NCBI GenBank assembly: GCA_016946835.1 | Contig: JACVTC010000094.1 | Span: 522,501-586,500, forward strand | Direction: 5' to 3' | From: Neocallimastix lanati (nom. inval.) | Taxonomy: Eukaryota; Neocallimastigomycota; Neocallimastigomycetes; Neocallimastigales; Neocallimastigaceae | Length of the DNA stretch: 64,000 nt | Translations under genes and position numbers: made by a program | Shown here: one piece after another, positions 26,862 to 64,000 of the stretch | Numbering within the stretch: the first letter of the stretch is position 1 | Layout of the letters: each line of letters starts with the position of its first letter | The notes under the pieces: model-generated | Told to the model about the DNA's origin: nothing | The model's input: the letters and a program-made list of their open reading frames with translations, nothing else | Databases searched by the model: none

Positions 26862-26954
26862 TGCTCCTGGCGGGGATCGAACCCGCGATCTTCGCGTGGC
26901 ATAAGAGGTACACCCTTATAAGCACGACGCCTTAAACCACTAGGCTACAGGAGC
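26862..26954 (-). tRNA. tRNA-Ile(UAU) with 19-nt intron
   Basis: On the minus strand the acceptor GCTCCTG (26954-26948) pairs with CAGGAGC (26869-26863), with discriminator A at 26862. The D-arm is GCCT/AGGC, the anticodon stem TCGTG/CGCGA (one G-U), and the T-arm GCGGG-TTCGATC-CCCGC. The anticodon region reads CTTATA, then a 19-nt intron at the standard position one base after the anticodon (26898-26916), then A. Removing it gives a 7-nt loop with anticodon TAT, hence isoleucine (AUA codons, which are frequent in this AT-rich genome). The intron contains CTTAT, which can pair with the anticodon region as is typical of eukaryotic pre-tRNA. A run of seven T (minus strand, 26846-26840) is the likely Pol III terminator. 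LTR element A begins 13 bp upstream of the mature 5' end. Confidence 0.95.
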
Positions 26955-26967
26955 TGTCTTGATCAAT

Positions 26968-28011
26968 TGATAAATAACAAAATTATTAAATTAAAATAAA
27001 TAATAAAAAAACAAATTCTTGATAAAGTTTTCTAGCTTAACCCAAAAATTAATCCATTCTAAAAAAAAAATTAAATCCATATTTAAGAAAAATTAATTAA
27101 ATAAAGATAATTAAAATAAAATAATAATAAATTAATTAATCATTAATAATTTTAATTAAAAACTAAAATAAATTAATAAATAATATTTTTCTAAAACAAC
27201 AAATAAACAAAATAATAAACATATTTAATAAATTATAAACAACAAATAAACAAACTTATAAACAACGCAAAATTAAAATTAAATAGTTAAATAATTTTTA
27301 AGTTACTTTTATTTAAAATAATGATTATTTTATTTATTTTATAACTCAACTTTTATAAACAAATTGTAATTAAAATAACATTTTAAAATTCATCTTTATA
27401 AACATTTTAATTGTAAATATTGTTTAATTTAATAATAAATTATTCTTTATTTCTCTTTTATTAATTTTATTATTTTTAATGTAAATAGTTTAAAATCAAA
27501 GAAAAATATAAAAACATGTAAATATTTCTTATAAATTATTCTTTATTATTAATTAGTTAATAAATTATTATAAATATTTTATTAGTTTTAATAATCAAAA
27601 AGTATGATTATTAATTATTTAATAAATTATTATAGATATTTTATTAGTTTTTAATAATCAATTTTTATGATTATTAATTATTTGATAAATTATTATATAT
27701 TTTATCAGTTATTAATAATCAATTTTATTATTAAAATTTAAAATAAATTAGTATAAATAATAAATATTTCATTTTATTATTTTATTAGTTTTAACAATTA
27801 TTTTATTAATTTAAACAAAATTAATTATTAAATAAATAAAGATTAATATTAAAATAAAAATAAATTTTTTTAATAAAACATTTTTGTGTTTAATAATAAA
27901 ACATATTTATTTTTTTTAAATTCCTTAAATCAATTTTTATTCAGTATTTATCCTTTTATTCACTTCTGCAAAATTTAATTTTTGTAGATTAAGAATATTA
28001 GGTATAAATCA
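26968..28011 (+). repeat. 5' LTR of element A
   Basis: Starts TGATAAATAACAAAATT and ends AATATTAGGTATAAATCA. Same length as the 3' copy with no difference seen by eye. Confidence 0.95.
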
Positions 28012-28012
28012 A

Positions 28013-28030
28013 TGGTGGAGAATCCTCTTG
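28013..28030 (+). promoter_or_regulatory. Primer-binding site of element A
   Basis: One base after the LTR, TGGTGGAGAATCCTCTTG matches the form expected for pairing with a tRNA 3' end (...CCA). The first nine bases TGGTGGAGA are shared with elements B, C and B2, so the primer tRNA acceptor should start GGAGA. The tRNA itself is not in the window. Confidence 0.6.
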
Positions 28031-28312
28031 TTGCCCCGGTGGTAAGTAAATTTTTTTTTAGTTTAATATTAGAATAAGCCTAGTTATTCAATAGTAATAT
28101 TAAACAATAATTAATACAATAAATTAGTCTAGTTTTAGAATAACTCTAAATTATTCATAGTAATAGACTCAAATAAATTTATCTTAATAATATGCAAATA
28201 AAATATTATAGCAATAAATTATTATAAATTAAAGTTATTAATATAAATTAATCAACAAATAATATACGTTAAATAAACTGCAAATTAAATTAAATTTATC
28301 TTTAATAATTAA

Positions 28313-28369
<57 letters not shown>

Positions 28370-28478
28370 TTTTAAAGATAATTAAATAGTATTCATATTA
28401 TTCAATTTAATTAAATAATAAAGTATATATTATAAGTAATAAATAATAATAATAATAAAATTTATTAGTAAAATTTTA

Positions 28479-28520
<42 letters not shown>

Positions 28521-28550
28521 ATTAGAAAAATTTTAATATAAAAAAATTTT

Positions 28551-28581
<31 letters not shown>

Positions 28582-28730
28582 TAAAAATAAAAATAAAAAA
28601 TAAAATATAACGGAAGAACTTTAAGAAGTTCTATTATAAAATTATTATTTATTTTTCAAAAAAGAATATTGTTGCTTTAGAAGCAATAATATAAGTAAAA
28701 TAATAAGTGGTTTCCGTGATTAGTTTATTC

Positions 28731-28860
28731 TTTCACAGTCGGCGCGCTGGGAAGCTCTGAACTATTCTACAAACGTATAAACGTGTAGGAGAATCACTGG
28801 TACGAGTAGTACATGACGCCTGAGCAAGTGGGCAAGCTGGCTACGAGTATACTACCTACT
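28731..28860 (+). ncRNA. Conserved leader RNA domain, element A
   Basis: Contains GCTCTGAACT, a hairpin (ATTCT...AGAAT), ACATGACGCC, a GCC/GGC mini-hairpin (28818-28820 with 28831-28833) and GGCAAGCTGG. The same order of motifs occurs in B (34561-34715), C (42670-42832) and B2 (56106-56262). It is untranslated and lies in the middle of the leader. Packaging, dimerisation and translation control are all possible. Confidence 0.6.
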
Positions 28861-29041
28861 TATTACTTATATTATTGGAAAATCGTAATTAATATTCTTT
28901 TGAGAATTATTAATAATAAATATTTATAATTTAACTTTTTATTCTTCTTTAAAAATTCAAATAATAAAAATTTATAAATACCATTATACTACTTAACCTT
29001 TTATTTTTTTAATATTTTCTAGGATATTATTGTATAAAATA

Positions 29042-29105
<64 letters not shown>

Positions 29106-29250
29106 ATAAATAAATATATAATAAAAAAAAAAATAAAATTAGAAAACAATAAAATTTAAATTAAGGAAAACAAATAAAGAAAAGAAGTATTTTTTTTAGT
29201 TGGAGGAACTGCTTCTGTTCTCTTGACTGATTGATACTTATAGTAGGAAT

Positions 29251-29416
29251 CTCTTACCCTTAATACTAGTGTATTATTGCAGTAAGAGCTAACGGACTGT
29301 AGAATAAGAATCAATACGGGGGAGTAGGCGCTGATTATAAGTAGAGATCTACGTTAGGTGTAGACGTAGTGTAAAACTCCTATAATCAGTGGGACCAAAC
29401 GTCGTATTATTCTACA
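29251..29416 (+). ncRNA. Nested stem structure ahead of element A gag
   Basis: Perfect stems: CTCTTAC 29251-29257 with GTAAGAG 29282-29288; TGTAGAATAA 29298-29307 with TTATTCTACA 29407-29416; inside it CTGATTATA 29331-29339 with TATAATCAG 29381-29389; inside that CTACG 29349-29353 with CGTAG 29365-29369. It ends 122 nt before the gag ATG, and an A-rich tract directly precedes that ATG. The arrangement suggests an internal ribosome entry or packaging element; that role is inference. Confidence 0.6.
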
Positions 29417-29538
29417 ACCGTACTATAAGGACGGGAAATCATTCAAGATAAACTAAAGATAATAAGAATTAATAATTTTAGAAATATTACTACTACTACT
29501 AATAATAATAATTAACAAAAAAAAAAAAAAAAAAAAAA

Positions 29539-30471
29539 ATGGAAACAACTACCAAAGCTATTACTTTTAGTAGATTACCAATATTAGGTGAAGAAAAAGT
29601 CCAATATGAAGAATGGAAATTCGCTTTTGAAAATTGGTGTCGAAAATATAAAATTGAAAACGAAGAAAAGAATGAATATTTAATTGCTGTAACTACAGAT
29701 AAAGCAAGAACTATTGTTATAAATTCTTTAAATAAAACACAAGCTGACTCTTATGAAATAATTTTAGAAAACTTAAAGAAAAGATTTAAACCTTGTACAC
29801 CAAAGAATGTAAAATTTTTGGAAATATCAACATTAACCATTAAGAAAGGTGAAAAAGTTTCAGACTTCGATACAAAATTCTTACAACTCTTAAATCAATT
29901 ACAATTAGATGGAAAGGATTATATTAGTACTCCATACTACATAAATGCATTTAGAAACTGGTCTAAAATGTATGAGTATTTGTTAGAATCAGAACCTAAT
30001 AAATTAAGTGATGCAATGGAAATAACTTCAAAAAAGGAAAAAATGCTTAAACTTCTTGAAGATAATAAACCAAAATCTAAAACTCAATTCTCAAATGTAA
30101 AGAAGAATCTAAATAACACTAATAATAACAATAATAAAAATACTAATTTTAGATCTTTTAATACTAATTATTACAATAAAATTCCTTTTATCTCTAATAC
30201 TAGGACTAATGAAAATTCCAGTTATAATAATAAATTTAGAAATAATAACTATAACAACAATTTTACTACAAATAGAAATTTTTACAACCCTGTAGAATTC
30301 AATAAGGGAGTCGAACAGAGAAGAGCAACTTTAAAAGGTTCTCAATTCACTGATAAAGAACTAGATGATATAACAAAAAAATTATCCGATTTAAAAATCA
30401 ACCTATGCATAAATTGTCAGCGTATTGGTCACATTGTTGAAGAATGTCCAGAATTAAACCATTTAAATTAG
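29539..30471 (+). CDS. gag: Gag of element A
   Basis: 310 residues from ATG 29539 (after a poly(A) tract) to TAG 30469-30471. It forms the capsid and binds RNA. The N-terminal part (YEEWKFAFENWCRKYKIENE; then FLEISTLTIKKGEKVSDFDT and KFLQLLNQL) resembles the capsid region of Ty3/gypsy Gag, in which a KKGEKVSDF-like segment is usual. An Asn-rich basic linker (about residues 195-255) leads to one zinc knuckle, CINCQRIGHIVEEC (C-x2-C-x4-H-x4-C, about residues 290-303). The last codons contain the slippery UUUAAAU that gives access to pol in the -1 frame. The frame is undamaged, consistent with recent activity. It is only distantly similar to the B and C Gag. Confidence 0.9.
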   Translation: METTTKAITFSRLPILGEEKVQYEEWKFAFENWCRKYKIENEEKNEYLIAVTTDKARTIVINSLNKTQADSYEIILENLKKRFKPCTPKNVKFLEISTLTIKKGEKVSDFDTKFLQLLNQLQLDGKDYISTPYYINAFRNWSKMYEYLLESEPNKLSDAMEITSKKEKMLKLLEDNKPKSKTQFSNVKKNLNNTNNNNNKNTNFRSFNTNYYNKIPFISNTRTNENSSYNNKFRNNNYNNNFTTNRNFYNPVEFNKGVEQRRATLKGSQFTDKELDDITKKLSDLKINLCINCQRIGHIVEECPELNHLN

Positions 30472-30496
30472 TTATCGGGAGTACGCAATCTCCCGA
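30462..30496 (+). promoter_or_regulatory. -1 ribosomal frameshift signal, element A
   Basis: The slippery heptamer TTTAAAT (30462-30468) is in correct phase (T TTA AAT). The gag stop TAG follows directly, then, after a 6-nt spacer, a perfect 7-bp hairpin: TCGGGAG 30475-30481 with CTCCCGA 30490-30496 and an 8-nt loop. A -1 slip enters the pol frame without a stop. Confidence 0.85.
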
Positions 30497-31838
30497 GATA
30501 AATAAAATTGCAACAAACAACTATGATCAAGAATATACTATAGAATATGAAGGAAACAATAATTATATGATTAATGCAGCCCAAAAGAGAAAATCGCTAA
30601 GTAGGAATGCATTGGATAAAAATAAAATATCACCAAGTAATAAATCTATAGTAAAACCTTCCATTCTAAATCAACCAAATATAAAAGCTGTTAAACAACA
30701 GAAGAAAGCCATTAGAGATAAAAGAAGAAGAGAAATTACAAATGATATAGAAGACATGAATTTATCTAATAATAATATTACGCATGAAGAATCTAATAAT
30801 AATAGTGAAAGTGTTCGTGCAACCAATTTTGACAAACCCCAACCCAATACTCCTAATGAAAATAATTATCAAGATAATAATTCAAATACTATACCAGAAA
30901 AAGTTAAAACAAAAGGTAAGCGAAACATGACCGAAATACAAATGTTAAAACCTGAAGATAAATTCAATATTCTAGAAGAAGCCAATAATTTATATCCTAA
31001 AATAAGCCTAACACAATTATTATCAGCATGTCCATCTATAAGAAAAGATCTAGAGCAAGGTTGTAAACCACGAGTTGAGAAAATACTTTATACTATTCAA
31101 AATTTAAATATTCCTATATTATGTGGAAAAATAGGAAACAAATCAGTCAAAATACTTTTCGACACAGGTGCAAATGTTAACATCATAACTAAAAATTCAC
31201 TTGAAGAACTAGAAAATGTAATCATTAATAATTGTGACCTTTCTGAAACTATTACAATTGCCGATGGTACAATACTCCATACTAATTCTTATATAAATTT
31301 AAAATTAATTATAAATAATAACTTAACTGTGAATGAAAAATTTTATATAATAGATTATACAAATCCATTCTTTAATATTATATTAGGAAGAGGTATACAA
31401 AAGAAGTACAGACTCTACATTGATCCAGATGATGATTGCTTATATCAAAAAACAAAAAAAGGAATTAAAAGAATAACTGAAATATATAATAACCATACTT
31501 CTTTAAAGACGCCTATGTGTAATGCAATAATAATAGAAAAGAATAAAGGTATCGGAAGTACTCTTTTGCAAAAGGAGGAAGACAAATTAGAACACCCAAC
31601 TTGTTGTTTAAGTAGGACATTGTCAATCAATTATAACAAACCAATAAAATCTATAACTGATTATAAGCCACTTTTAGGTTTGCTCAAGAAAAATATTCCT
31701 AACAACAATAGACATGCTCGTTGGATAGAAGAATTCAATAAATACAAAACCAACCTAGTTTATCAAAAAAGAAAAAGAAATCTTTTTGATGATGCACTTT
31801 CAAGACTATTATCAAAAGACTCTGAAACAACACTTTAG
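30468..31838 (+). CDS. pol: Truncated Pol of element A (protease plus RNase H scraps)
   Basis: Read by -1 frameshift from gag (LVIGSTQSPEINKI at the start); the ATG at 30444 in this frame lies inside gag and is probably not used. After a charged linker comes an aspartic protease with canonical ILFDTGANVNIITKNS (catalytic Asp codon at 31161) and the closing FFNIILGRG motif. Right after it the frame jumps to pieces of RNase H (GIGSTLLQKEEDKLEHPTC; DYKPLLGLLKKN; then LFDDALSRLL) and stops at 31836-31838. The whole reverse transcriptase, the RNase H active-site strands and the integrase zinc and catalytic domains are missing compared with elements B and C. The protease may still process Gag. A naturally reduced element, not a random wreck, is likely because gag and protease are open. 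Confidence 0.85.
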   Translation, partial: LVIGSTQSPEINKIATNNYDQEYTIEYEGNNNYMINAAQKRKSLSRNALDKNKISPSNKSIVKPSILNQPNIKAVKQQKKAIRDKRRREITNDIEDMNLSNNNITHEESNNNSESVRATNFDKPQPNTPNENNYQDNNSNTIPEKVKTKGKRNMTEIQMLKPEDKFNILEEANNLYPKISLTQLLSACPSIRKDLEQGCKPRVEKILYTIQNLNIPILCGKIGNKSVKILFDTGANVNIITKNSLEELENVIINNCDLSETITIADGTILHTNSYINLKLIINNNLTVNEKFYIIDYTNPFFNIILGRGIQKKYRLYIDPDDDCLYQKTKKGIKRITEIYNNHTSLKTPMCNAIIIEKNKGIGSTLLQKEEDKLEHPTCCLSRTLSINYNKPIKSITDYKPLLGLLKKNIPNNNRHARWIEEFNKYKTNLVYQKRKRNLFDDALSRLLSKDSETTL

Positions 31839-31954
31839 TTCTTGAAGATCCACAAACAGGAAAACTCCTTGAAAGAAATGTTCATATAAAAAATGTTTTC
31901 CCTTATGTACTACAAGAAAATGATACAACTTCAAGGGACGAAGTTGACTCTTAA
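31832..31954 (+). pseudogene. Integrase C-terminal remnant, element A
   Basis: In the frame one base off the pol stop, the sequence reads TLVLEDPQTGKLLERNVHIK then NVFPYVLQENDT and ends TAA 31952-31954. It aligns with the integrase tail of element B (TLIDQKTGKQLDRNVHFKN). It marks the right edge of the deletion that removed integrase. Confidence 0.8.
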
Positions 31955-31966
31955 GGGCCGAGAAAT

Positions 31967-33010
31967 TGATAAATAACAAAATTATTAAATTAAAATAAAT
32001 AATAAAAAAACAAATTCTTGATAAAGTTTTCTAGCTTAACCCAAAAATTAATCCATTCTAAAAAAAAAATTAAATCCATATTTAAGAAAAATTAATTAAA
32101 TAAAGATAATTAAAATAAAATAATAATAAATTAATTAATCATTAATAATTTTAATTAAAAACTAAAATAAATTAATAAATAATATTTTTCTAAAACAACA
32201 AATAAACAAAATAATAAACATATTTAATAAATTATAAACAACAAATAAACAAACTTATAAACAACGCAAAATTAAAATTAAATAGTTAAATAATTTTTAA
32301 GTTACTTTTATTTAAAATAATGATTATTTTATTTATTTTATAACTCAACTTTTATAAACAAATTGTAATTAAAATAACATTTTAAAATTCATCTTTATAA
32401 ACATTTTAATTGTAAATATTGTTTAATTTAATAATAAATTATTCTTTATTTCTCTTTTATTAATTTTATTATTTTTAATGTAAATAGTTTAAAATCAAAG
32501 AAAAATATAAAAACATGTAAATATTTCTTATAAATTATTCTTTATTATTAATTAGTTAATAAATTATTATAAATATTTTATTAGTTTTAATAATCAAAAA
32601 GTATGATTATTAATTATTTAATAAATTATTATAGATATTTTATTAGTTTTTAATAATCAATTTTTATGATTATTAATTATTTGATAAATTATTATATATT
32701 TTATCAGTTATTAATAATCAATTTTATTATTAAAATTTAAAATAAATTAGTATAAATAATAAATATTTCATTTTATTATTTTATTAGTTTTAACAATTAT
32801 TTTATTAATTTAAACAAAATTAATTATTAAATAAATAAAGATTAATATTAAAATAAAAATAAATTTTTTTAATAAAACATTTTTGTGTTTAATAATAAAA
32901 CATATTTATTTTTTTTAAATTCCTTAAATCAATTTTTATTCAGTATTTATCCTTTTATTCACTTCTGCAAAATTTAATTTTTGTAGATTAAGAATATTAG
33001 GTATAAATCA
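31967..33010 (+). repeat. 3' LTR of element A
   Basis: 1044 bp, same length and apparent sequence as the 5' LTR. It is followed by CAATT and then element B. Confidence 0.95.
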
Positions 33011-33015
33011 CAATT

Positions 33016-33516
33016 TGATAAGAATGTACTAAATAATGCATTCTTAATTAAATCTACGATTTATTTCTAATACATTATGTGTACATTATTATTTTTGTAC
33101 TTTAATAAATTTTTAAATCCAAAGATCAAAAATTAAATCAAAAATTATATTAAACTTTATATTTTTATATTAAATCTTATATTAATAGTAATATTTTTAT
33201 ATATTTAAAACTTATATTAGCAATATTAATAATAAATCTTATTTTTTTTTATATTAATAATGAAAATTTATATTAATAATATTTTTATATATTGATAATT
33301 AAAAATTTATATATTATATTTTAACTTTTTATTATAAAATTTTATATCGAAATGTTTTATTTTATATTGAAAAATATTTTATTTTATTAAAAACCTTTAT
33401 ATTAGAATAGTATTTTTATTTTTATTTGAATATTTTAACAGATTGTAATAAAAATTATAGCCAATTAAATAAATACTTATTAGTAATATTTTAGATATTT
33501 TTAAATAAATAAATAA

Positions 33517-33555
<39 letters not shown>

Positions 33556-33861
33556 TTTTATTAATATTATAAATGTATTTTATTTATATTGTTATAATTA
33601 AATTTTATATAATTAATTATAAAACTCAATTTAAATTTAATAGTTTTTATAAAAAAAAAAAAAAATAAATAAAATGTAATTTAGTGGCAAGAACAACTTT
33701 TATGCCTTGAAAAAAGTATAAATAGTTGTAAATTTTGCTACTAATTTTTAAATATCATCGAATAAAATCAAATAAATTTATAAATAAAAATAATAAATAA
33801 AAAAAAAATAAAATTTGTGTTTCTTTACTTTATTTTTATTTAATTCTCTAAAACCTTAACA
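33016..33861 (+). repeat. 5' LTR of element B
   Basis: Starts TGATAAGAATGTACTAAATA and ends CTCTAAAACCTTAACA. Contains a poly(A) tract whose length differs between copies and a TATA box near its 3' third. Confidence 0.95.
33717..33725 (+). promoter_or_regulatory. TATA box in element B LTR
   Basis: TATAAATAG follows TTTTATGCCTTGAAAAAAG, a segment conserved in all four B-family LTRs of the window (one has ATATAAATAG). It would start transcription about 100 bp before the LTR end. Confidence 0.6.
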
Positions 33862-33867
33862 TTTATA

Positions 33868-33884
33868 TGGTGGAGATATCGGGG
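33868..33884 (+). promoter_or_regulatory. Primer-binding site of element B
   Basis: TGGTGGAGATATCGGGG lies six bases after the LTR end. The identical 17-mer occurs in C (42599) and B2 (55412). Confidence 0.65.
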
Positions 33885-33949
33885 AATTAAATAGAAATAA
33901 TAGTAAATAACATAGATTTTTTTTAATTTTTTTTTTATTTTATATTGAT

Positions 33950-33995
33950 AAACAAGTAAGTCGTTAATCCTTTGATTAACCTATGGCGCTTGTTT
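33950..33995 (+). ncRNA. Leader stem-loop, element B
   Basis: AAACAAG 33950-33956 pairs with CTTGTTT 33989-33995, enclosing TTAATC 33964-33969 with GATTAA 33974-33979. Conserved in B2 (about 55505-55550). Confidence 0.6.
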
Positions 33996-34080
33996 GATAT
34001 ATATATAAAAAAAAAAAAAATTTTTTTTAAATAAGTAAAATTAAGATTCTAAAAAAAAAACCAAATCTTGTAAAATTATA

Positions 34081-34313
34081 ACAAGGAGCGGATAGAGCTC
34101 ATACACAGTGTATTTCCAGAAAACAACAAAATATCTATTATTCATAGTAGGTTATTGGATAATAGTTATTTTGGGAATTAATTGGAAAGTAGACGAAGGT
34201 ATTTGGTTACCGACCCGGTAATAATAGTTCAGCCTTCAACGTTTCAACACACGAAGGTGCGGGTACTTTCCAAGCACTGGCGAATAAGGAGCTTACGTCA
34301 CCGAAGGCGTAAG
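34081..34313 (+). ncRNA. Structured leader domain of element B
   Basis: A GC-richer block. GGAAAGTA 34184-34191 pairs with TACTTTCC 34264-34271 and encloses CGAAGG/CCTTC and the hairpin TTACC-gaccc-GGTAA (34207-34221). A second hairpin CTTACG 34292-34297 with CGTAAG 34308-34313 follows. The block is nearly identical in B2 (55625-55857) while the flanking A/T tracts vary, so it is probably under constraint. No long frame crosses it in both copies; a 75-codon frame here is probably incidental. Confidence 0.6.
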
Positions 34314-34560
34314 ATTGTTTTTTTTTATATTTTTTTTATTTTTCTTTGTGCTAGTTATAAGGTACTTTATTATATAAAGTATCAGACTTTGGCTAATTTC
34401 GCCATTTAAATTTTTTTTTATTTTTTTTTATTATTGGTACTTTATTTGTTATATAATTCCTGTAATAGAATCTTAATTTACTTTGAAAATATTGTGTTTT
34501 TAGTTAATTTTTATTAGTTAATAAAAATATTATTGAATACTTTTAAAATTTTTTTTATTC

Positions 34561-34715
34561 CGTACATAGATTATCGGATTAAGTTTATCCTACATAGTAA
34601 TTGGGATAGTGGGCTCTGAACTGCTATATTTTATATTGAATATAGTAATCGTGGCACACGCGTGGCATGACACCATTAGGTAAGCTGCACGTCAGACAGT
34701 GTGTACTATCAGATT
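34561..34715 (+). ncRNA. Conserved leader RNA domain, element B
   Basis: GGGCTCTGAACTG is followed by the hairpin CTATATT 34624-34630 with AATATAG 34639-34645, GCATGAC, the mini-hairpin ACC 34672-34674 with GGT 34679-34681, and AAGCTGCACGTCAGACAG. It matches C and A with compensatory base changes in both hairpins. Confidence 0.7.
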
Positions 34716-34889
34716 GTACGACAATAAAGATTATTTTTTTGTATTTAATAATTATAATTAATTAATAATTTTATTAACTATAACAATACAATATTTATCG
34801 TTTAAAAAGAAAAATTTTTGAAAGGTGAAAATAATAAATAAAACTTTGCTTCTAAATTTATTACTACAAATATACTAAATTACAAAATT

Positions 34890-35085
34890 CAAGTGGTCGA
34901 TAAAGATTTCGAGCTTGAAAAATATTCTATTAAGTTGTCGATAAAGATTTCGAACTTAAAATTATTCTATTAAGTTGTCGATAAAGATTTCGAACTTAAA
35001 AATTATTCTTAATAAAGTAGTCGAAAAGAACCTCGTGCTTTATAATTTCTACTAAGTTGTCGATAAGGATTTCGAGCTTATATCT
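34890..35085 (+). repeat. Tandem hairpin repeats before gag, element B (5 units)
   Basis: A unit of about 40 bp, TTAAGTTGTCGATAAAGATT then TCGAACTTAAAATTATTCTA, can fold as TAAGTT...AACTTA with TCGA...TCGA inside. There are three good units, one diverged unit (GTCGAAAAGAACCTCGTGC) and a last one before the gag ATG. Confidence 0.85.
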
Positions 35086-35254
35086 ACTAAAGAAAGCAAA
35101 TAAAATTATTATTTTCAAAAGTTACTAAAATATATTGTTTTAAAAATTGATTCGATATTAAATTACCTATTAAATTATATTTTTAAAGTTGTATTTCCAA
35201 ATTTATTCTTATTTAATCACCTCATTAATATACAACAAGAAATATTTAAACAAA

Positions 35255-36166
35255 ATGTCCAAGGAAACAACTTTGAGCTTTAAAGAATTGAAAAAAGAAT
35301 TAAGAGATATTGTGAAACTTAGCAAGGACAATTTAGATATTAAGTCCTGGGCTACTGAATTAAAACTTTGGATCAAGATACAAGGTATTACAGATCCAGA
35401 AACAATATTTAATGCTTGTTTACTTACCAGCTCTGGTGAAGTACAACGCGTCATTGAAGATTTGGGAGAAGATAGTGATGATGAAAGTGATGATTCATCA
35501 GATGAAGAAGAAGAAGATGATGAAGAAGAAAATGTTGATGATGATATTAAATTTCCTTCTCTTGGAAAAATTATTTCAAGTCTTGAAAATTTTTACGGTA
35601 TTAAAGAAGACCAAAATTTACTTCTTAAAGAACTTCGTGCAATGCGAATTAAAAGAAACGAAAAGATTAAAGACTTTAATGTAAGATATAGAACTTTGTA
35701 CACTAAACTTGATAAAAAGAGAAGAAAGCGCATTGGTGTACTAGATTATATTGATTCTATTCAAAATAATTATGAAGCCTGGAAGAAATTATCCCTTAAA
35801 GATGATATAAGTATGGAGAAAGCTTTCAAAATTGCCGAGAAAGTAGATAGACTTTCTGTAAGGAACAATAATATTAATACCTATAATGTTAATAATTCCC
35901 AACATAATCAAAATAATCAAAACAGTACTACTTCAAGACTTTATCCTAAAAGAAGAAACGAAACTTTCCAAACAAGTCAAACAAATAATAAACTGAAACC
36001 TCAAGATATTATAGAAGAATCAACCCAGAAAATGAGAAATTTATCTGTTAAAACTTGCTTCTTCTGTAAGGAAGAAGGTCATTACTCATACTATTGCCCT
36101 CAATTAAATAAGATTATGGAAAAAAATAAAAAAGAAATATATTCCAAAAAGTCTTTAAACTTCTAA
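35255..36166 (+). CDS. gag: Gag of element B
   Basis: 303 residues, from ATG 35255 (context AACAAAATGTCC) to TAA 36164-36166. The start was chosen because element C Gag aligns from the same point (MSKETTLSFKELKKELRDI versus MAENKINFKELKKELKDI). It contains a capsid-like region (LDIKSWATELKLWIKIQGIT; later LRAMRIKRNEKIKDFNVRYR), a strongly acidic insert of Asp/Glu/Ser (about residues 75-100), an Asn/Gln-rich linker and one zinc knuckle CFFCKEEGHYSYYC near the C-terminus. Its last codons form the slippery site. The reading frame is open. Confidence 0.92.
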   Translation: MSKETTLSFKELKKELRDIVKLSKDNLDIKSWATELKLWIKIQGITDPETIFNACLLTSSGEVQRVIEDLGEDSDDESDDSSDEEEEDDEEENVDDDIKFPSLGKIISSLENFYGIKEDQNLLLKELRAMRIKRNEKIKDFNVRYRTLYTKLDKKRRKRIGVLDYIDSIQNNYEAWKKLSLKDDISMEKAFKIAEKVDRLSVRNNNINTYNVNNSQHNQNNQNSTTSRLYPKRRNETFQTSQTNNKLKPQDIIEESTQKMRNLSVKTCFFCKEEGHYSYYCPQLNKIMEKNKKEIYSKKSLNF

Positions 36167-36186
36167 ATGGGAGCAGAAGCACTCCC
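36154..36186 (+). promoter_or_regulatory. -1 ribosomal frameshift signal, element B
   Basis: TTTAAAC 36154-36160 is in phase T TTA AAC. The gag stop TAA lies in the 8-nt spacer, followed by hairpin GGGAG 36169-36173 with CTCCC 36182-36186 and an 8-nt loop. Both pol and the homologous region of C are open in the -1 frame from exactly this point. Confidence 0.88.
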
Positions 36187-40155: not shown

Positions 40156-40173
40156 GTCTTCGTCGGGGCATCT

Positions 40174-40658: not shown

Positions 40659-40706
<48 letters not shown>

Positions 40707-41006: not shown

Positions 41007-41062
41007 GATTCGGTAAAGAACGAACATATAATGGATTATTAATTAGAATTTCAACTTACTTT

Positions 41063-42499: not shown

Positions 42500-42598
42500 T
42501 GAAGTTTTTCAAGAATTAAAATGTAGACAGAAAAATATCAAAAATAAATAATTAATTAAATAAAAATTCTAATAAAACCCGAACCATAACATAATTTA

Positions 42599-49899: not shown

Positions 49900-49922
49900 C
49901 TTGAGTCTTAGTGGGGGCATCT

Positions 49923-50763: not shown

Positions 50764-50767
50764 GATT

Positions 50768-53248: not shown

Positions 53249-54552
53249 TGTGTAATAATTCTATTAAGAACTAACTCAAAATAGAATTATTAACTACAAC
53301 TTAACGACTAATTCATTAAGTTGAGAAAATAAAATAAAATAAATTTTTTTACCTTTAATGTAGAGTTTATTATAAAATTAATTATAATAATAACACAAAA
53401 TGTAAGAGAAGAATTGTTTGTATAAATTGATCTTAAAAATATGTTTTTGAATAAAATATTTTTATTAATTTATTAAAGTTAAAAATATAAAAATGTTACT
53501 ATTATAACTATGTTTTTTTATAATAATAACTCTTGATTTCTCAAAGAGAACTCAAGAGCCTTATTTATATTTTTTTATGAAAATAAGGTTAAATAAGAAA
53601 GGGTTTTCTAATCTTAACAAATCTCTTATCTAGGAAAAGATTAGATAGAAAAACCTAGATAAGTTTTCGATCGATATTCTATCCATATCGATCATCGCAT
53701 TAATTAAGTAAAACCGATTACTTCTAAAAAGTAATTGGAAAAAATCTTAATTAACCGATTTTCTAATCTAATCTAATGATCGAAAATAAAAGAATAAAAT
53801 AATAAAAGATATTTCGATCATATAATTTATCCTTATATTAAAAATATAAAATTAAATAGTTAATAAAATACAGAATACATTATAAAATACAGAATAAAAT
53901 ACAATACAAAATACATTAGTTACAGTAGAGAATTTAACATATTGTAAATATATTATTTAAAATTAATTAAATAAATTTTGTTAAATTAATGAATATTTAA
54001 AATTAAATTAAATAAATTTAATAAATATTATATGTAATTAAATAAAGTTATAGTTATAATAACTTAACTAAGAAAATATAATTATTTGTTAGCAAATAAT
54101 TATAGATTCTTACAATTTGTTACGAAACAATACTATATATTAATAATTTTTAAAGTCAGAAAAATATTATCTCATATTTTATATTTTTATTATTAAATTT
54201 ATTATTTTATATTTTATATTTTTATTATTAAATTTAATATATATTTATATATATAATTATGTTATATTAAGAATAATATTAAAAATGATTAATTAGAAAA
54301 ATATTTTTAACCAATTAAATTTATATATTGAACTATAAAAAGACAAATGTAAAAGAAATAATTTTAAAAACTCTCTCTTAAAAATTTTAGAAGAAATAAA
54401 ACAATAAAAATAACAGCAAGTTTTAAGAAGTGTTGGTTTTGATTATGTTTGTGTTATTTGTTGTTCTTGGTTTATTTTTAGGAGTTATAAATATTAATTG
54501 TTATGAATATACAGTTCAGAATTATTAAATAATATTTTAAAATCCTGTGCCA
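53249..54552 (+). mobile_element. Probable LTR or LTR fragment I, with hairpin chain
   Basis: Starts TGTGTAATAATTC after CGATT and ends CCTGTGCCA, followed by CGAT and element B2. At 1.3 kb it is longer than the other solo LTRs and may include leader sequence. It carries a chain of exact hairpins at 53530-53754. No coding frame. Confidence 0.38.
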
Positions 54553-54556: not shown

Positions 54557-55405
54557 TGATAAGAATGTACTAAATAATGCATTCTTAATTAAATCTACGA
54601 TTTATTTCTAATACATTATGTGTACATTGTTATTTTTGTACTTTAATAAATTTTTAAATCCAAAGATCAAAAATTAAATCAAAAATTATATTAAACTTTA
54701 TATTTTTATATTAAATCTTATATTAATAGTAATATTTTTATATATTTAAAACTTATATTAGCAATATTAATAATAAATCTTATTTTTTTTTTTATATTAA
54801 TAATGAAAATTTGTATTAATAATATTTTTATATACTGATAATTAAAAATTTATATATTATATTTTAACTTTTATTATAAAATTTTATATCGAAATGTTTT
54901 ATTTTATATTGAAAAATATTTTATTTTATTAAAAACCTTTATATTAGAATAGTATTTTTATTTTTATTTGAATATTTTAACAGATTGTAATAAAAATTAT
55001 AGCCAATTAAATAAATTCTTATTATTAATATTTTAGATATTTTAAAAAAAAAACAAAACAAAAAAAAAAAAAAAAAAAAAAAAATGTTTTATTAATATTA
55101 TAAATGTATTTTATTTATATTGTTATAATTAAATTTTATATAATTGATTATAAAATTCAATTTAAATTTAATAGTTTTTATAAAAAAAAAAAAAAAATAA
55201 ATAAAATGTAATTTAGTGGCAAGAACAACTTTTATGCCTTGAAAAAAGTATAAATAGTTGTAAATTTTGCTACCAATTTTTAAAAATCATCAAATAAAAT
55301 CATAAAATAAATTTAATAAAATAAATAAATAAAAAAAATAATAAACAAATAAATAAAATTTGTGTTTCTTACTTTATTTTTATTTAATTCTCTAAAACCT
55401 TAACA
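54557..55405 (+). repeat. 5' LTR of element B2
   Basis: Same ends as B (TGATAAG...CTTAACA). TATA box TATAAATAG at 55249-55257. PBS TGGTGGAGATATCGGGG follows at 55412. Confidence 0.93.
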
Positions 55406-57002: not shown

Positions 57003-57914
57003 ATGTCCAAGGAAACAACTTTGAGCTTTAAAGAATTGAAAAAAGAATTAAGAGATATTGTGAAACTTAGCAAGGACAATTTAGATATTAAGTCCTGGGC
57101 TACTGAATTAAAACTTTGGATCAAGATACAAGGTATTACAGATCCAGAAACAATATTTAATGCTTGTTTACTTACCAGCTCTGGTGAAGTACAACGCGTC
57201 ATTGAAGATTTGGGAGAAGATAGTGATGATGAAAGTGATGATTCATCAGATGAAGAAGAAGAAGATGATGAAGAAGAAAATGTTGATGATGATATTAAAT
57301 TTCCTTCTCTTGGAAAAATTATTTCAAGTCTTGAAAATTTTTACGGTATTAAAGAAGACCAAAATTTACTTCTTAAAGAACTTCGTGCAATGCGAATTAA
57401 AAGAAACGAAAAGATTAAAGACTTTAATGTAAGATATAGAACTTTGTACACTAAACTTGATAAAAAGAGAAGAAAGCGCATTGGTGTACTAGATTATATT
57501 GATTCTATTCAAAATAATTATGAAGCCTGGAAGAAATTATCCCTTAAAGATGATATAAGTATGGATAAAGCTTTCAAAATTGCCGAGAAAGTAGATAGAC
57601 TTTCTGTAAGGAACAATAATATTAATACCTATAATGTTAATAATTCCCAACATAATCAAAATAATCAAATCGGTAATACTTCAAGACTTTATCCTAAAAG
57701 AAGAAACGAAACTTTCCAAACAAGTCAAACAAATAATAAACCGAAACCTCAAGATATTATTGAAGAATCAACCCAGAAAATGAGAAATTTATCTGTTAAA
57801 ACTTGCTTCTTCTGTAAGGAAGAAGGTCATTACTCATACTATTGCCCTCAATTAAATAAGATTATGGAAAAAAATAAAAAAGAAATATATTCCAAAAAGT
57901 CTTTAAACTTCTAA
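57003..57914 (+). CDS. gag: Gag of element B2
   Basis: 303 residues from ATG 57003 to TAA 57912-57914. It differs from B Gag at only a few positions (SMDKAF for SMEKAF, NNQIGNTSRL for NNQNSTTSRL, NKPKPQ for NKLKPQ). Zinc knuckle CFFCKEEGHYSYYC is intact. Confidence 0.92.
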   Translation: MSKETTLSFKELKKELRDIVKLSKDNLDIKSWATELKLWIKIQGITDPETIFNACLLTSSGEVQRVIEDLGEDSDDESDDSSDEEEEDDEEENVDDDIKFPSLGKIISSLENFYGIKEDQNLLLKELRAMRIKRNEKIKDFNVRYRTLYTKLDKKRRKRIGVLDYIDSIQNNYEAWKKLSLKDDISMDKAFKIAEKVDRLSVRNNNINTYNVNNSQHNQNNQIGNTSRLYPKRRNETFQTSQTNNKPKPQDIIEESTQKMRNLSVKTCFFCKEEGHYSYYCPQLNKIMEKNKKEIYSKKSLNF

Positions 57915-57934: not shown

Positions 57935-60900
57935 AATGACAAAACAATAGCTTCATTAAATAATTTACAAAATAATACTTTTACTAAGAATACTCTAATT
58001 GATAATAATTCCTTTAATGAAGAATCTGAAGAATCTGATTTTAGTGACACAACTGAAAGTGAGGATGATATCATTATAAATGCTATAAAAAGAAAAATGA
58101 ATGATAATAACAACGAAAAAGAAGAAAATGATTCCAAGAAAGTACATAAAAGTTTAAAAGATAATCCACGTCCTTTCGCAACTCCTGCTTTAAGAAAGAA
58201 GAAAGAAAATGAGCTACATAATAAACCAAATAAAGTTTATAAAAATCAAATACTTCCTTCAATTTTAACTCAACCAAATATTAACAAAGAAAAACAAAAA
58301 GAAAAGGAATTAAGAAATATAACAAGAGTAAGAGAAAGTAAAGAAGAAAACAACAATTATTCATCAAATGGAAAGGAAAAAGTTGAATCTGAAGATATAC
58401 GTGTAATCGATAATGAAATAGAAGATCTAGAAATGAATAAAGATAATCAACAAAATAAAACTAATACTTTGGAAAAATTAATTTCAACAAAAACTAAAGA
58501 AATTAATAATGGAAATACTCAGTTAGTAAAAAGGAATATCAAAATGATGAATAATAAAGAACCTTACAATATTATGGATGATTTAAATAATCTTAAATCC
58601 AGTATTACGATAGGTCAACTCTTAAATGCATGTCCGAAAATTCGTTCACAATTAACTCAAGGTTTAAAGTTAGAAAAATCTAAAATAATTGGAACTGTAG
58701 ACAATGTAATAGCACGAACTTTATTAGTAAATAACTATGATCATAGCTACCTAAGTAAAAGTAATGAAGTAGCCGAAGAAGACTTAGCAATGGTTGATGC
58801 AAGTGTTGACGGAGTACTAGGAAAACTTTTAATTGATTCTTGTAGTAACCTAAGCATCGTTACTAAGCAGTATTTTGATAAATTACCTGGTGAATATGAA
58901 ACAGTTGGAAAAAGTCGTGGAAGAATCCAACTAGCAACACAAGATGAAGAATACTCGGAAGGAATTATTGTTCGATTACCAGTAAAAATTAATAATTATG
59001 AATTTAATGCGGACTTTAGAATTATTGAGAAAGAAGACTCTTTTTATGATATGTTAATAAACTTTAAAACTCAAATCGATCATTGTTTATTTATTCATCC
59101 GACCTTAAACAGTTTATGTAAACTTTTGTCAGAAAGTGAATACGAAGAAATAGCTAAAATAAATAATCAATATTATGATGAAGAAAGTATAATTTGCACT
59201 ATTAGAAAAGTTAAAGAAACGAATAATGAAAAGGAAATTATAAAGGAATTAACTCCAATGGAATTTATTGAGAGTGGTGAATTTTTAAGTACCTTAAATA
59301 AAGATTATAAAGAACAAATTATTAAAATTCTCAAAGAAATGATTGACATAGTTGCCACTTCAACAGAAGAACTAACTCCTTCTAAACTTTCACCACATAA
59401 GATCCGTTTAAAAGCTAATGCAAAGTCAGTAAAATTAAGAAGTTATAGGTTAATTAAATTAAAATCAGATATCTTAAAAGAAGAACTTACAAAGCTTATT
59501 AAGAAAGGATTGATAGAACCATCCTGTTCAGAATGGTCATCTCCAGTAGTACTTATTCTAAAACACAATGGAAAGTGGCGCTTGTGCATTGATTACCGAA
59601 AAGTCAATGATATGACAGAAAAAGATTTTTATTCAGTTCCATATATAGATGAAATTTTTGATAGTCTCGGAGGAGCTAAAATATTTACAACTCTTGATTT
59701 ATTTTCTGGTTTTCACCAAATCTTAATGGATGAAGAAAGCGTTGAAGTAACCACTTTCACTACTAAGTTTGGAAATTATCAATTTAAGGTTATGCCTTTT
59801 GGACTTACTGGAGCTCCCTCAACCTTCCAAAGAGAAATGAATAAAATTTTATTCCCTTTTATTGGTGAATTTGTTTACGTATTTATTGATGATGTTTTGA
59901 TCTATTCAAAAAGTATCGAAGAACATTTAATTCATATTAAACAAGTATTAGAAGTATTTAAAGAAAACAAGTTAAAAATTAATATTGAAAAGTGCCATTT
60001 TCTTCAAACTGAAGTTGATGTATTAGGTCACAAACTTACTACTAAAGGATTAAGCCCCATGGAAAGCAAAATAACAGCTATTAAGAAGTGGGAAGCCCCT
60101 TCATCACTTCATGAATTAAGATCATTTCTAGGAGCAGTAGGATATTATCGTGACTTTATTCCTAAATATGCTCAAATTACCTCACCTTTATGTAAATTAT
60201 TGAAAAAGAATACTAAATATGAATGGAATAAAGAACAACAAGAAAGCTTTGAACTCCTAAAAGAAAAATTAATCAATTCACCTATTCTAAAATTTCCGTT
60301 ATTTGACAAACCTTTTATCATTAGAACTAATGCTTCGTATAATGGAATTGGTGGAGTTCTTTTACAAAAAGAAGAAGAAACCGGTAAGGAGCATCCAATA
60401 CACTTTATAAGTAGAAGTTTGAAGAAAGCTGAAAAGAATTATGGTATCACAGATTTGGAAGGAACAGCTTTATTTTACTGTATGACTAAATTTAAATCTT
60501 ATATTGAAGGAAATCCATTACATACAACTATTTACACAGATCATAAACCATTAGTTGGTTTATTTAAGAATAAAGAACCTTTGAATGCAAGGCAAACAAG
60601 ATGGTGTCTAACCGCTAGTATGCTTGGAATTAATATAAAATATGAATCAGGCAAAAAGAATGTGTTAGCTGATGCTCTTTCAAGAATGAAAAGTAAGGAA
60701 GAGAGAAAGATATTATTAACAAAAATTACTAATGGAAATAATGAAGAATTATTATCTAAAGTTATAAAGGAATTTATTAATGAAAAGTTTACTGTTATTG
60801 ATGGTGAAGATTACTTTATCGACAATGGAAATTATAGAAAATTAATAACGGATGAAAATGAAAAATTTAAATTAATTTTAGAAGCTCATAATATTGGCCA

Positions 60901-61912
60901 CGAAGGATATTACAAAACATATCAAAGACTTAAGAAAAACTTTTATTGGAATCATATGATTAAAGATATCAAAAGAATTGTTAGTAATTGTGAAAAATGC
61001 CAGTTAAATCGTCCTCAACCATATCCAGAACCAACCGAAAACCATCCAACTAAAGTAGAGGGTCCCTTTGTGCATTTAGGATTAGATATTATAGGACCGT
61101 TACCAAAAACAAAAAATAATAATCAATATATTATAGTAACTGTTGATTACTTTACCAAATGGGTTGAAGCCGAACCCACTGAAAACATAACTTCCTCTGA
61201 TATAATTAAATTTTTAATAAACGTTTTTGCAAGACATGGTGTGCCTCAAATTATTACTACGGATAATGGAGTCCAATTCACTTCTGATATGACTAAAATC
61301 TTTCTTGATCTTTATGATGTATATGTTAAATTTGTAGCTACTTACCACCCTGAATCAAATGGCCTTACTGAAAATCGAAATAAAGAAATTGGAAAATTAC
61401 TCCGTTTATTAGGAAGGAAAAATCAAGATTGGGATGAAGTTTTACCTTCTGCTTTATGGGCACTTCGAACTACCAAAAATACAGCTACTGGACATTCTAG
61501 TTTTGAATTAGTATATGGAAGAGAAGACCAACAGCCTTATGATATAGCCATAAGAACAATTGAAAATGCAGGTAAATCATATGATGAAATTTTAATGGAA
61601 AAATTTGTTCGTCATTATCAATGGACTAGAGAAGCATGCGAAAATGTGAAGAATGCTAACAAGTATTGGGCAACAAGACGAGAAGAACAAATAAGTATGA
61701 AAAAAGGAAAAGAATTAAAGGCTGGTGATCTTGTTCTTGTTAGAAACTTTAGCCGCACTAAGCTAGAACCATATTACAATGGACCATTTAAAATTTTAAA
61801 AATTCAATTCAACACGGCAACCCTAATCGATCAGAAGACTGGAAAGCAACTCGATAGGAATGTTCACTTTAAAAATTTAGTAAAGTTTAACTCCGCTTAC
61901 AGAGAAGCTTGA
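57908..61912 (+). CDS. pol: Pol of element B2 (RNase H active-site mutant)
   Basis: Full-length open pol entered by -1 frameshift; the first downstream ATG is 58097. Domains as in B: DSC-type protease motif, RT with FIDD, RNase H, zinc-binding and D,D-35-E integrase, GPF-type tail. In RNase H the sequence is IIRTNASYNGIGG (codon 60329-60331 AAT) where B and C have IIRTDASY; loss of this Asp is expected to abolish RNase H activity. Other differences from B include KDFYSVP for KDSYSVP and KSVKLRSYRLIK for KPVKLRSYRLTK. At SALWALRT it agrees with C, so the SASWALRT of B is the variant. The copy is probably no longer autonomous. Confidence 0.93.
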   Translation, partial: LLNGSRSTPNDKTIASLNNLQNNTFTKNTLIDNNSFNEESEESDFSDTTESEDDIIINAIKRKMNDNNNEKEENDSKKVHKSLKDNPRPFATPALRKKKENELHNKPNKVYKNQILPSILTQPNINKEKQKEKELRNITRVRESKEENNNYSSNGKEKVESEDIRVIDNEIEDLEMNKDNQQNKTNTLEKLISTKTKEINNGNTQLVKRNIKMMNNKEPYNIMDDLNNLKSSITIGQLLNACPKIRSQLTQGLKLEKSKIIGTVDNVIARTLLVNNYDHSYLSKSNEVAEEDLAMVDASVDGVLGKLLIDSCSNLSIVTKQYFDKLPGEYETVGKSRGRIQLATQDEEYSEGIIVRLPVKINNYEFNADFRIIEKEDSFYDMLINFKTQIDHCLFIHPTLNSLCKLLSESEYEEIAKINNQYYDEESIICTIRKVKETNNEKEIIKELTPMEFIESGEFLSTLNKDYKEQIIKILKEMIDIVATSTEELTPSKLSPHKIRLKANAKSVKLRSYRLIKLKSDILKEELTKLIKKGLIEPSCSEWSSPVVLILKHNGKWRLCIDYRKVNDMTEKDFYSVPYIDEIFDSLGGAKIFTTLDLFSGFHQILMDEESVEVTTFTTKFGNYQFKVMPFGLTGAPSTFQREMNKILFPFIGEFVYVFIDDVLIYSKSIEEHLIHIKQVLEVFKENKLKINIEKCHFLQTEVDVLGHKLTTKGLSPMESKITAIKKWEAPSSLHELRSFLGAVGYYRDFIPKYAQITSPLCKLLKKNTKYEWNKEQQESFELLKEKLINSPILKFPLFDKPFIIRTNASYNGIGGVLLQKEEETGKEHPIHFISRSLKKAEKNYGITDLEGTALFYCMTKFKSYIEGNPLHTTIYTDHKPLVGLFKNKEPLNARQTRWCLTASMLGINIKYESGKKNVLADALSRMKSKEERKILLTKITNGNNEELLSKVIKEFINEKFTVIDGEDYFIDNGNYRKLITDENEKFKLILEAHNIGHEGYYKTYQRLKKNFYWNHMIKDIKRIVSNCEKCQLNRPQPYPEPTENHPTKVEGPFVHLGLDIIGPLPKTKNNNQYIIVTVDYFTKWVEAEPTENITSSDIIKFLINVFARHGVPQIITTDNGVQFTSDMTKIFLDLYDVYVKFVATYHPESNGLTENRNKEIGKLLRLLGRKNQDWDEVLPSALWALRTTKNTATGHSSFELVYGREDQQPYDIAIRTIENAGKSYDEILMEKFVRHYQWTREACENVKNANKYWATRREEQISMKKGKELKAGDLVLVRNFSRTKLEPYYNGPFKILKIQFNTATLIDQKTGKQLDRNVHFKNLVKFNSAYREA

Positions 61913-61930
61913 GTCTTCGTCGGGGCATCT

Positions 61931-62752
61931 TGATAAGAATGTACTAAATAATGCATTCTTAATTAAACCTACGATTTATTTCTAATACATTATGTGTACA
62001 TTATTATTTTTGTACTTTAATAAATTTTTAAATCCAAAGATCAAAAATTAAATCAAAAATTATATTAAACTTTATATTTTTATATTAAATCTTATATTAA
62101 TAGTAATATTTTTATATATTTAAAACTTATATTAGCAATATTAATAATAAATCTTATTTTTTTTATTTTTATATTAATAATGAAAATTTGTATTAATAAT
62201 ATTTTTATATATTGATAATTAAAAATTTATATATTATATTTTAACTTTTATTATAAAATTTTATATCAAAATGTTTTATTTTATATTGAAAAATATTTTA
62301 TTTTATTAAAAACCTTTATATTAGAATAGTATTTTTATTTTTATTTGAATATTTTAACAGATTGTAATAATAATTATAGCCAATTAAATAAATTCTTATT
62401 AGTAATATTTTAGATAGATTATTATAAAAAAAAAAAAAAAAAAAAAAAATGTTTTATTAATATTATAAATGTATTTTATTTATATTGTTATAATTAAATT
62501 TTATATAATTGATTATAAAATTCAATTTAAATTTAATAGTTTTTTTTAAAAAAAAAAAATAAATAAAATGTAATTTAGTGGCCAGAACAACTTTTATGCC
62601 TTGAAAAAAATATAAATAGTTGTAAATTTTGCTACCAATTTTTAAAAAATCATCAAAATAAATTTAATAAAATAAATAAATAAAATAATAAATAAATAAA
62701 TAAAATCTGTGTTTCTTACTTTATTTTTATTTAATTCTCTAAAACCTTAACA
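61931..62752 (+). repeat. 3' LTR of element B2
   Basis: 822 bp, preceded by TCGTCGGGGCATCT, ending CTTAACA, then GATT and solo LTR E. Confidence 0.93.
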
Positions 62753-62756
62753 GATT

Positions 62757-63227
62757 TGATACGTGACCACTATAAAAATGGTATTTAGGTAGATTCTTTA
62801 TGTTAAAGAAATACTTAAATATTATTGGTCAATAATAATTTTATAATAATATATATAATTTTAGAATAATAATTATTAAACGGGGAATTCTTTTATTTAT
62901 AAGTTTATACTAATGATGATAAATTAATTCATATAAATAGCTATTTTTATATTTTATTTTAGTATAGTTAAAAGAGATATTATATATATTTGAGATAATT
63001 AATTATAATATTTATATAAAAGAGTAATAATAATAATAATTGATGTAATAATTAATAATTAATAATAAATAAAGAGAACATTAAAAAGATATAATTATTA
63101 CTTTATTTTGTATTATTGTATGTGTTATTTCTAATTAATATTAGAATATATTATTTTGTCATAATTCCTTATTGTCATTGCCCATAAATAAATATTAATT
63201 TAGATACATAAATAAAATATCGTATCA
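62757..63227 (+). mobile_element. Solo LTR E
   Basis: 471 bp with perfect terminal TGATACG/CGTATCA. Flanked by GATT on both sides (62753-62756; 63228-63231). Shares CCACTATAAAAAT near its start and ATTAGAATATATTAT and GTCATAATTCCTTA near its end with F. Confidence 0.7.
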
Positions 63228-63231
63228 GATT

Positions 63232-63881
63232 TGATACGGTACCACTATAAAAATAAGATTTAGGTAGGAAATTTAGGTTAGAAATATTGTATAAATATTA
63301 TTGGTTATAATAATTAAAATAATTTATATATAGTTAATTCAAATAATTATTTTTAAAAGCATGGTTAATTCTTTTGTCATAATTAAAATAGATAAATTAT
63401 ATTATTAATGATTCTATTATTATGATAATAAATTAATTCATCATTATTATTAATAAGTTTTATTTTATATTTTAAATATTATTTTGAGAATTATATAATT
63501 TTAGGAGTTATATTATAAATACTGATGATTATATTTTATTTAGGAAATATATTTTTAAATATTGATAGTTATGTATTATTTAATTATGAAAATGTATTAT
63601 TAAATAAACTTATTAGGAAATTAATAGTTTAAGAGATATGTTTAATAACATATAATATTAAATAATTATTTTAACAATTATATAAAATTAAGAGAATGTA
63701 ATAATAAATATTTATGTATGTAAATATTTATTAAATAAAGAATAAAATATTATTATAAAGCATTATTATTATAAATTATTTTCTTATATTTATTAGAATA
63801 TATTATCGTGTCATAATTCCTTAGAGAAACGACCAACTAAATTAATAACTCGATATGGAATATTTTAAATGTTCTGTATCA
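63232..63881 (+). mobile_element. Solo LTR F
   Basis: 650 bp, TGATACGG...CTGTATCA, with GATT on both sides (63228-63231; 63882-63885). Same family as E but diverged in the middle, so E and F are separate old insertions. Confidence 0.7.
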
Positions 63882-63885
63882 GATT

Positions 63886-64000
63886 TGATAAATAACAAAA
63901 TTATTAAATTAAAATAAATAATAAAAAACAAATTCTGTCTAACTTAACCCAAAAATTAATCCATTCTAAAAAAAAAATTAAATCCATATTTAAGAAAAAT
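63886..64000 (+). mobile_element. Start of another A-family LTR (cut by window end)
   Basis: TGATAAATAACAAAATTATT onward matches the element A LTR, with a short internal deletion around 63930 (A has ATTCTTGATAAAGTTTTC, here ATTCTGTC). It lies at the far end of the stack from the recent copy A. Confidence 0.85.

Follow-up and report, generated by a model that had tools for sequence, protein, structure and literature searches.

Long terminal repeat retroelements stacked outward from a tRNA-Ile(UAU) gene in Neocallimastix lanati

The DNA described here, referred to as the window, is a stretch of 64,000 nt of Neocallimastix lanati (G000:C757:522501-586500, from a genome of 199 Mb in 762 contigs) with a G+C content of 19-22%. 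Its subject is a tRNA-Ile(UAU) gene and the at least 12 long terminal repeat (LTR) units that are stacked end to end outward from position 26968, in the order A, B, C, D, G, H, I, I2, B2, E, F and A3. The components are listed below; solo LTRs have no intrinsic sense and, like the nested LTR N, are given without strand.

26862-26954, minus strand: tRNA-Ile(UAU) gene with a 19-nt intron, the anchor of the stack (ARAGORN; Rfam RF00005, 60.2 bits)
26955-26967: spacer TGTCTTGATCAAT, 13 nt, from the tRNA 5' end to the first LTR; its last 4 nt, CAAT, are the target duplication of element A
26968-33010, plus strand: element A, LTRs 26968-28011 and 31967-33010
33011-33015: gap CAATT between A and B, the A duplication CAAT plus T
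33016-41006, plus strand: element B, LTRs 33016-33861 and 40174-41006
41007-41010: gap GATT between B and C
41011-50763, plus strand: element C, LTRs 41011-42591 (including nested N) and 49923-50763
41062-41792: nested LTR N, about 731 bp, in the 5' LTR of C, with TACTT on both sides (5-bp duplication)
50764-50767: gap GATT between C and D
50768-51947: solo LTR D; a relative in locus L027 spans D positions 31-1180
51952-52483: G, probably a solo LTR (left boundary +/- 2 nt) and preceded by ATTG; the loci compared contain no copy of it
52487-53243: solo LTR H, preceded by the gap GAT
53249-54114: solo LTR I, left boundary +/- 2 nt, preceded by the gap CGATT
54118-54552: solo LTR I2, preceded by the gap ATT; related starts lie beyond the B copies C479 and C379
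54557-62752, plus strand: element B2, LTRs 54557-55405 and 61931-62752, preceded by the gap CGAT
62757-63227: solo LTR E, preceded by the gap GATT
63232-63881: solo LTR F, preceded by the gap GATT
63886-64000, plus strand: element A3, preceded by the gap GATT; LTR, primer-binding site and gag run on beyond the window end

The initial annotation had described a head-to-tail series of units with gaps of 3-5 nt, beginning 13 nt upstream of the tRNA, and the stack is real, with order and gaps as described, except that its unit I comprises two LTRs, I and I2, with ATT between them. Relatives of I elsewhere end at about its position 866, and the first bases of I2 resemble termini beside other B copies. 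The further statement that no LTRs lie on the other side of the tRNA agrees with our search, in which the LTR units and the internal parts of A, B and C had no match in window positions 1-26861 (26.9 kb) at an E-value of 1e-10 and 75% identity. A single orientation had been assigned to all units; this holds for the coding units A, B, C, B2 and A3, but H is reversed relative to the tRNA-adjacent H copies elsewhere (4/4) and also relative to the copy in L209, which lies beside a B copy. Among the distal units, A3 is not a solo LTR, since its primer-binding site and gag continue past the window end. A3 is without about 1.1 kb of the A leader (L217, G000:C757:586501-588500; L218, 589850-591350). 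A search for its 3' LTR beyond the window missed it; the stretch holds a D-like LTR, so that LTR sequence continues further out than A3.

The 11 gaps between units read, in order, CAATT, GATT, GATT, ATTG, GAT, CGATT, ATT, CGAT, GATT, GATT and GATT, with GAT present in eight and exactly GATT in five. The gaps correspond to target duplications of 4 bp, the majority in one register or another of CGATT, and a single G-to-A change after the arrival of B and before that of A would have turned CGATT into CAATT. Copies at other loci are flanked by duplications of the same length. Among 21 A copies (window A included; four loci were dropped for a missing terminus and five as internal 3' LTRs) the 4-bp duplication is exact in 16, compared with a mean of 1.1 and a maximum of 5 under shuffled pairing; one further copy matches with a one-nt shift, three match at 3 of 4 positions and one does not match. 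For B the duplication is exact in 15 of 17 copies, a count from which nine were dropped for an internal side and two for a missing terminus and which has C189 and C248 as near-duplicates. GATT is the 5' tetramer of none of these 38 copies.

In the sample of the genome in which enrichment was checked, LTR starts cluster on the upstream side of tRNA genes, at 11-18 nt, with no such concentration on the downstream side. Loci L031-L160, found independently of LTRs, contain 88 distinct tRNAs, of which 17 have another tRNA close upstream and 71 are solitary; a TGRTA start lies 11-18 nt upstream in 35 of the 71, representing seven isotypes, as against 0-4 of 71 in each of fifteen other 8-nt windows 24-143 nt upstream, and TGRTA was found downstream in 0/46. 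When all 97 tRNAs are taken, nine of them from LTR-derived loci, the counts at 11-17 nt are 41 against 1.5 expected, and downstream 0/55 against 1.3 expected. In a comparison of the 97-tRNA set that uses no motif, upstream homology between different isotypes begins at position 12-18 in 31/68 cases, and in the same test downstream in 1/31. Families of the window recur beside other tRNAs (at least 22 of 30 terminal nt), A seven times, B seven, I and H four each, E and F twice each and C and G once each, although four of the seven A cases match at only 23-24 of 30 nt and F and G are weak.

The loci used included 26 GGTTCGATTCC matches among 100 listed (6 + 20) and the first 40 of 175 GGTTCGATCCC matches. 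The tRNA sample is not random: all 30 Rfam loci are tRNA-Arg(UCU) matches, and several loci are clustered. The clusters include tRNA-Gly/Cys pairs and tRNA-Arg(UCU) genes (G000:C24, L104-L110; G000:C555), and the pairs seen are so closely spaced that no LTR would fit between their members. The B-box word GGTTCGANTCC gave 855 matches, with 23 in the backward control, and about 29 of the first 40 fetched were a tRNA-derived short interspersed nuclear element (SINE), while tRNA-Thr calls in many of the 40 GGTTCGATCCC loci were false, lying inside C-type elements, after which the intron length in ARAGORN was capped at 60. C-type elements (window 43200-43290; L123, L127, L134 and others) carry in their leader the B-box-like word GGTTCGATCCC, which ARAGORN calls tRNA-Thr only when a long intron is allowed. 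On AT-rich loci, BLAST of the LTR units gave too much noise unless matches were filtered by identity.

In the whole genome, with near-duplicate contigs included and backward-pattern controls at 0, an A start lies 50-80 nt before the B-box word GGTTCGA 30 times and a B start 137 times. Reversed facing at the same distance occurs twice for A and 13 times for B (one of the 13 not tRNA-looking), giving orientation ratios of 30:2 and 137:13. The comparison is calibrated for B, not for A, because the two B termini are equally findable: there are 737 exact occurrences of the 16-nt 5' terminus, a figure that counts internal 3' LTR copies as well, and 720 of the 3' terminus. No tRNA was called in the 3' flanks (130-200 nt) of 28 fetched B copies. 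A and B are strongly biased towards placing the 5' LTR against the tRNA and transcription away from it, which is a bias and not a rule. An A start 81-111 nt before GGTTCGA, the range taken as a distance control, was found three times, namely at the present locus and at two apparent intron-bearing tRNA-Ile genes with the LTR about 14 nt away, and spacers are 13-17 nt in the 28 of the 100 listed B matches (137 in total) that have a recognisable tRNA or SINE start. The matched strings (30/30 for A; 100 of 137 listed for B) are tRNAs, the tRNA-derived SINE and several tRNA-like families, so that an A/B-box Pol III (RNA polymerase III) promoter seems to be the feature that the insertion anchors share.

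Some A and B insertions face the SINE (G000:C554:2300684, C754:675467 and others), and tRNA-like gene families with A- and B-box-like words (L010, L021, C761, C752 and others), which gave no ARAGORN call where tried, also act as anchors. Thirty A copies were fetched, and once the 5 whose 5' side is internal are set aside, the other 25 comprise 6 that face a tRNA, 3 that face either a tRNA-like gene or the SINE, 15 that face an LTR-like end and 1 unassigned; six of these LTR-like ends are recognisable as B, C or D and the others only by a CA terminus a few nt away. For B, 24 copies (window B and B2 included, six internal copies excluded) comprise 5 that face a tRNA, three of them probably duplicates, 4 that face a tRNA-like gene, 13 an LTR-like end and 2 unassigned.

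The nested LTR N keeps a different distance. Full-length relatives are present in 8 of the loci compared, and in 6/9 distinct loci they lie 66-67 nt upstream of a called tRNA, in either orientation (one nt having been subtracted because the query started at the second base of the LTR; L043, L044 and L052, among these six, may be duplicates). The remaining three loci have no tRNA within 400 bp, two of them being truncated at the end of the locus. The start of N is 51 nt into C; had C been proximal at the time, with the 13-nt spacer of today, N would have lain 64 nt from the tRNA. This agrees with an order in which C held the innermost place until B and A were inserted, although the distance is 2-3 nt shorter than in the relatives.

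LTR-LTR divergence was compared between full-length B elements found among the 40 best-scoring LTR matches. Those beside tRNA or tRNA-like genes have few or no substitutions (C357 1/837, C761 0/845, C189 0/846, C256 0/846 and C752 0/819; C248, 0/843, was dropped as a near-duplicate of C189), and those behind an LTR-like end have more (C124 3/827, C741 2/830, C45 1/815, window B 13/827 and window B2 22/819). With five elements on each side and raw counts of 0-1 against 1-22, the permutation probability is 1/252; it is 1/462 when C479, which stands outside the main test, is counted as buried, and 1/3003 after three tRNA-adjacent A elements (all 0) and C are added, the A element at C739 (0/1040, beside a tRNA-like gene) being left out.

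B, C and B2 have TG...CA LTR ends (except the C 5' LTR, which begins CG, one change from TG), gag, and a pol with the order reverse transcriptase (RT), RNase H, integrase, by which they can be classed as Ty3/gypsy (Metaviridae) LTR retrotransposons. In B, gag is at 35255-36166 and pol, an open frame with RT, RNase H and integrase, at 36337-40155; B2 has gag at 57003-57914 and an open pol at 58097-61912; and the C pol, 45976-49899, is open. Closeness of the RT to the Ty3 type was found for B only, through the best PDB sequence matches of its pol, Ty3 Gag-Pol 7q5b (E-value 4e-107) and chain 4ol8, which we take also to be Ty3, in RT/RNase H. No chromodomain was matched by Pfam in the B, C or B2 pol at an E-value of 0.001, at which a diverged domain could be missed. 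Among the best 120 of 1377 relatives of B pol the nearest has 99% identity, and the seven with a source name are six of Orpsp1_1 (50-73% identity), presumably Orpinomyces (Pecoramyces), an anaerobic gut fungus, and one pseudoscorpion protein (34%). These names point to an anaerobic gut fungus (Neocallimastigomycota) as the host and not to a dictyostelid, and both the genome size of about 200 Mb and the extreme AT content are in keeping with that phylum. B and B2 are 98% alike over the body. In L124 a stretch like the B/C primer-binding site runs on into a tRNA-like T arm and may name the primer tRNA.

Element A has gag (29539-30471) and a protease plus RNase H remnant (30444-31838), with no RT or integrase match despite its identical LTRs (0/1044 substitutions); on these domains it is predicted to be non-autonomous. 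Three further pairs of A LTRs, compared in spacing and LTR sequence, likewise lie about 5.0 kb apart and are identical within each pair; the equal spacing suggests a spreading non-autonomous family, presumably mobilised by other elements. The initial annotation agrees with these data in the like LTRs of A, the nonsense codon of C, which is a stop codon in its gag, and the C LTR difference, about 5/850. For the RNase H mutation noted in B2 the candidate is D746N relative to B, inside the RNase H match and one of 29 listed differences. On the far side of the tRNA, the minus strand holds a 2438-aa open frame with long Asn runs (740-8056) and no Pfam match at an E-value of 0.001.

We consider it highly probable (roughly 0.92) that the stack arose by repeated Ty3-like, Pol III-guided LTR integration with a strong orientation bias, and that position reflects insertion order. 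Each unit would be a separate LTR retrotransposon insertion, of Ty3/gypsy type where coding sequence remains, steered by the Pol III machinery on the tRNA gene to a target of a few bp that lies some 13-17 nt upstream of the mature 5' end. With each insertion 4 bp would be duplicated, while the tRNA gene and spacer stay where they are; as new insertions push older ones outward, position would record the order of insertion, and later LTR-LTR recombination would have turned many old copies into solo LTRs. By analogy with yeast Ty3 the steering factor may be TFIIIB/TFIIIC. The proposal of the initial annotation that this is a hot spot reused at nearly the same base pair is supported, in that neither the enrichment nor the divergence check refuted it.

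Several observations weigh against this reading. Its corollary that position records age stands insofar as buried full-length B elements are more LTR-diverged than tRNA-adjacent ones, but within the stack the relation is not strictly monotonic: divergence is 0/1044 in A, 13/827 in B, about 5/850 in C and 22/819 in B2, so that ranking by divergence, lowest first, gives A, C, B, B2, and ranking by position A, B, C, B2. C thus looks younger than B, although the difference is not significant and the two are indistinguishable (7/699 against 5/850, Fisher p 0.39). The fetched set comprises only 10 full-length B pairs, and two of these are near-duplicates; the adjacent C761 and C752 face tRNA-like genes without an ARAGORN call, and C479 has 24/812 LTR substitutions with discordant flanks and a neighbour that could not be classified. 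As to the duplications, 5/15 of the exact B cases are TTTT in T-rich flanks and carry little information, the gaps ATTG (D/G) and ATT (I/I2) fit CGATT imperfectly, and the left tetramer of window B, AATT, is one base apart from the right, GATT. A loose LTR-start motif, present upstream in 66/71 tRNAs but also in 24-48 of 71 in other windows, was withdrawn as evidence, and nothing in the analysis names TFIIIB or TFIIIC.

Growth of the array by tandem duplication or unequal LTR recombination would account for the likeness of B and B2, and LTR arrays can recombine; most neighbours, however, are of different families, the LTRs of B and B2 differ at 13-19 sites outside the gap-flanking stretches, and 4-bp duplications flank A and B copies elsewhere with tetramers that differ between loci, and we regard this origin as very improbable. 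The presence of GAT(T) before most units, together with the 15/25 A copies that abut an LTR-like end, might instead point to earlier LTR ends or a GATT-like sequence as the target, the tRNA being only the first landing place. We can give this very little credence: tetramers at other loci are unrelated, tRNAs of seven isotypes have starts at 11-18 nt without another LTR intervening, and 30 A and 137 B starts face the B-box word directly. In L003 the junction of a younger B end with A falls a few nt within A, which is what a distance set by the tRNA would predict.

It is equally hard to believe that insertion was roughly random and that selection has spared just those copies that lie upstream of tRNA genes. 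Targeting and survival cannot be told apart by position alone, but the spacing is far narrower than a plausible safe zone, full-length elements with near-identical LTRs lie next to tRNAs, and N is held at a different fixed distance. We incline slightly towards a more specific picture, in which the Pol III complex would act as an oriented docking site for many families within a window of a few bp, with the 5' LTR of A and B facing the tRNA in about nine cases of ten or more; many tRNA genes would bear layered, datable columns of insertions, and the N class, docking at 66-67 nt, would leave marker layers within older elements. Columns at tRNA genes offer a relative chronology of retroelement families that needs no molecular clock and for which LTR divergence provides a check. 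The orientation bias, unexpected because an integrase has two equivalent LTR ends, makes the geometry of Pol III-guided integration testable.

Among the papers listed by open-licence literature searches on gut-fungus retrotransposons, transposable elements and repeat content, no title or opening of an abstract mentions tRNA-targeting LTR elements in the phylum. The target duplication of Ty3 is 5 bp, that of the elements here 4 bp. According to PMC5006619, PMC7175516 and PMC5911963, Ty3 of Saccharomyces cerevisiae and DGLT-A of Dictyostelium likewise insert upstream of tRNA genes, close to the Pol III start. DGLT-A, a Ty3/gypsy element, is placed there 13-33 bp upstream, about 15 bp on average (PMC5006619), and thus, like the elements described here, at a short fixed distance. 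It differs from them in host group and, according to the passage concerned, in inserting in either orientation and having no full-length copies in D. discoideum (PMC5911963). Tfc1 is likewise stated to enable Ty3 insertion in both orientations (PMC5911963), unlike the ratio of about 10 to 1 or more seen here. The N family recalls the second, more distant window used by Ty1 and other elements further upstream of Pol III genes, although N, known from LTR sequence alone, has one window, 66-67 nt, in six loci. The short fixed upstream distance of Ty3/DGLT-A-type integration is found in the present system, and both orientations occur but in very unequal numbers (30:2 and 137:13); the main differences are the strong orientation bias and the height of the stack, with many families piled on one tRNA gene.

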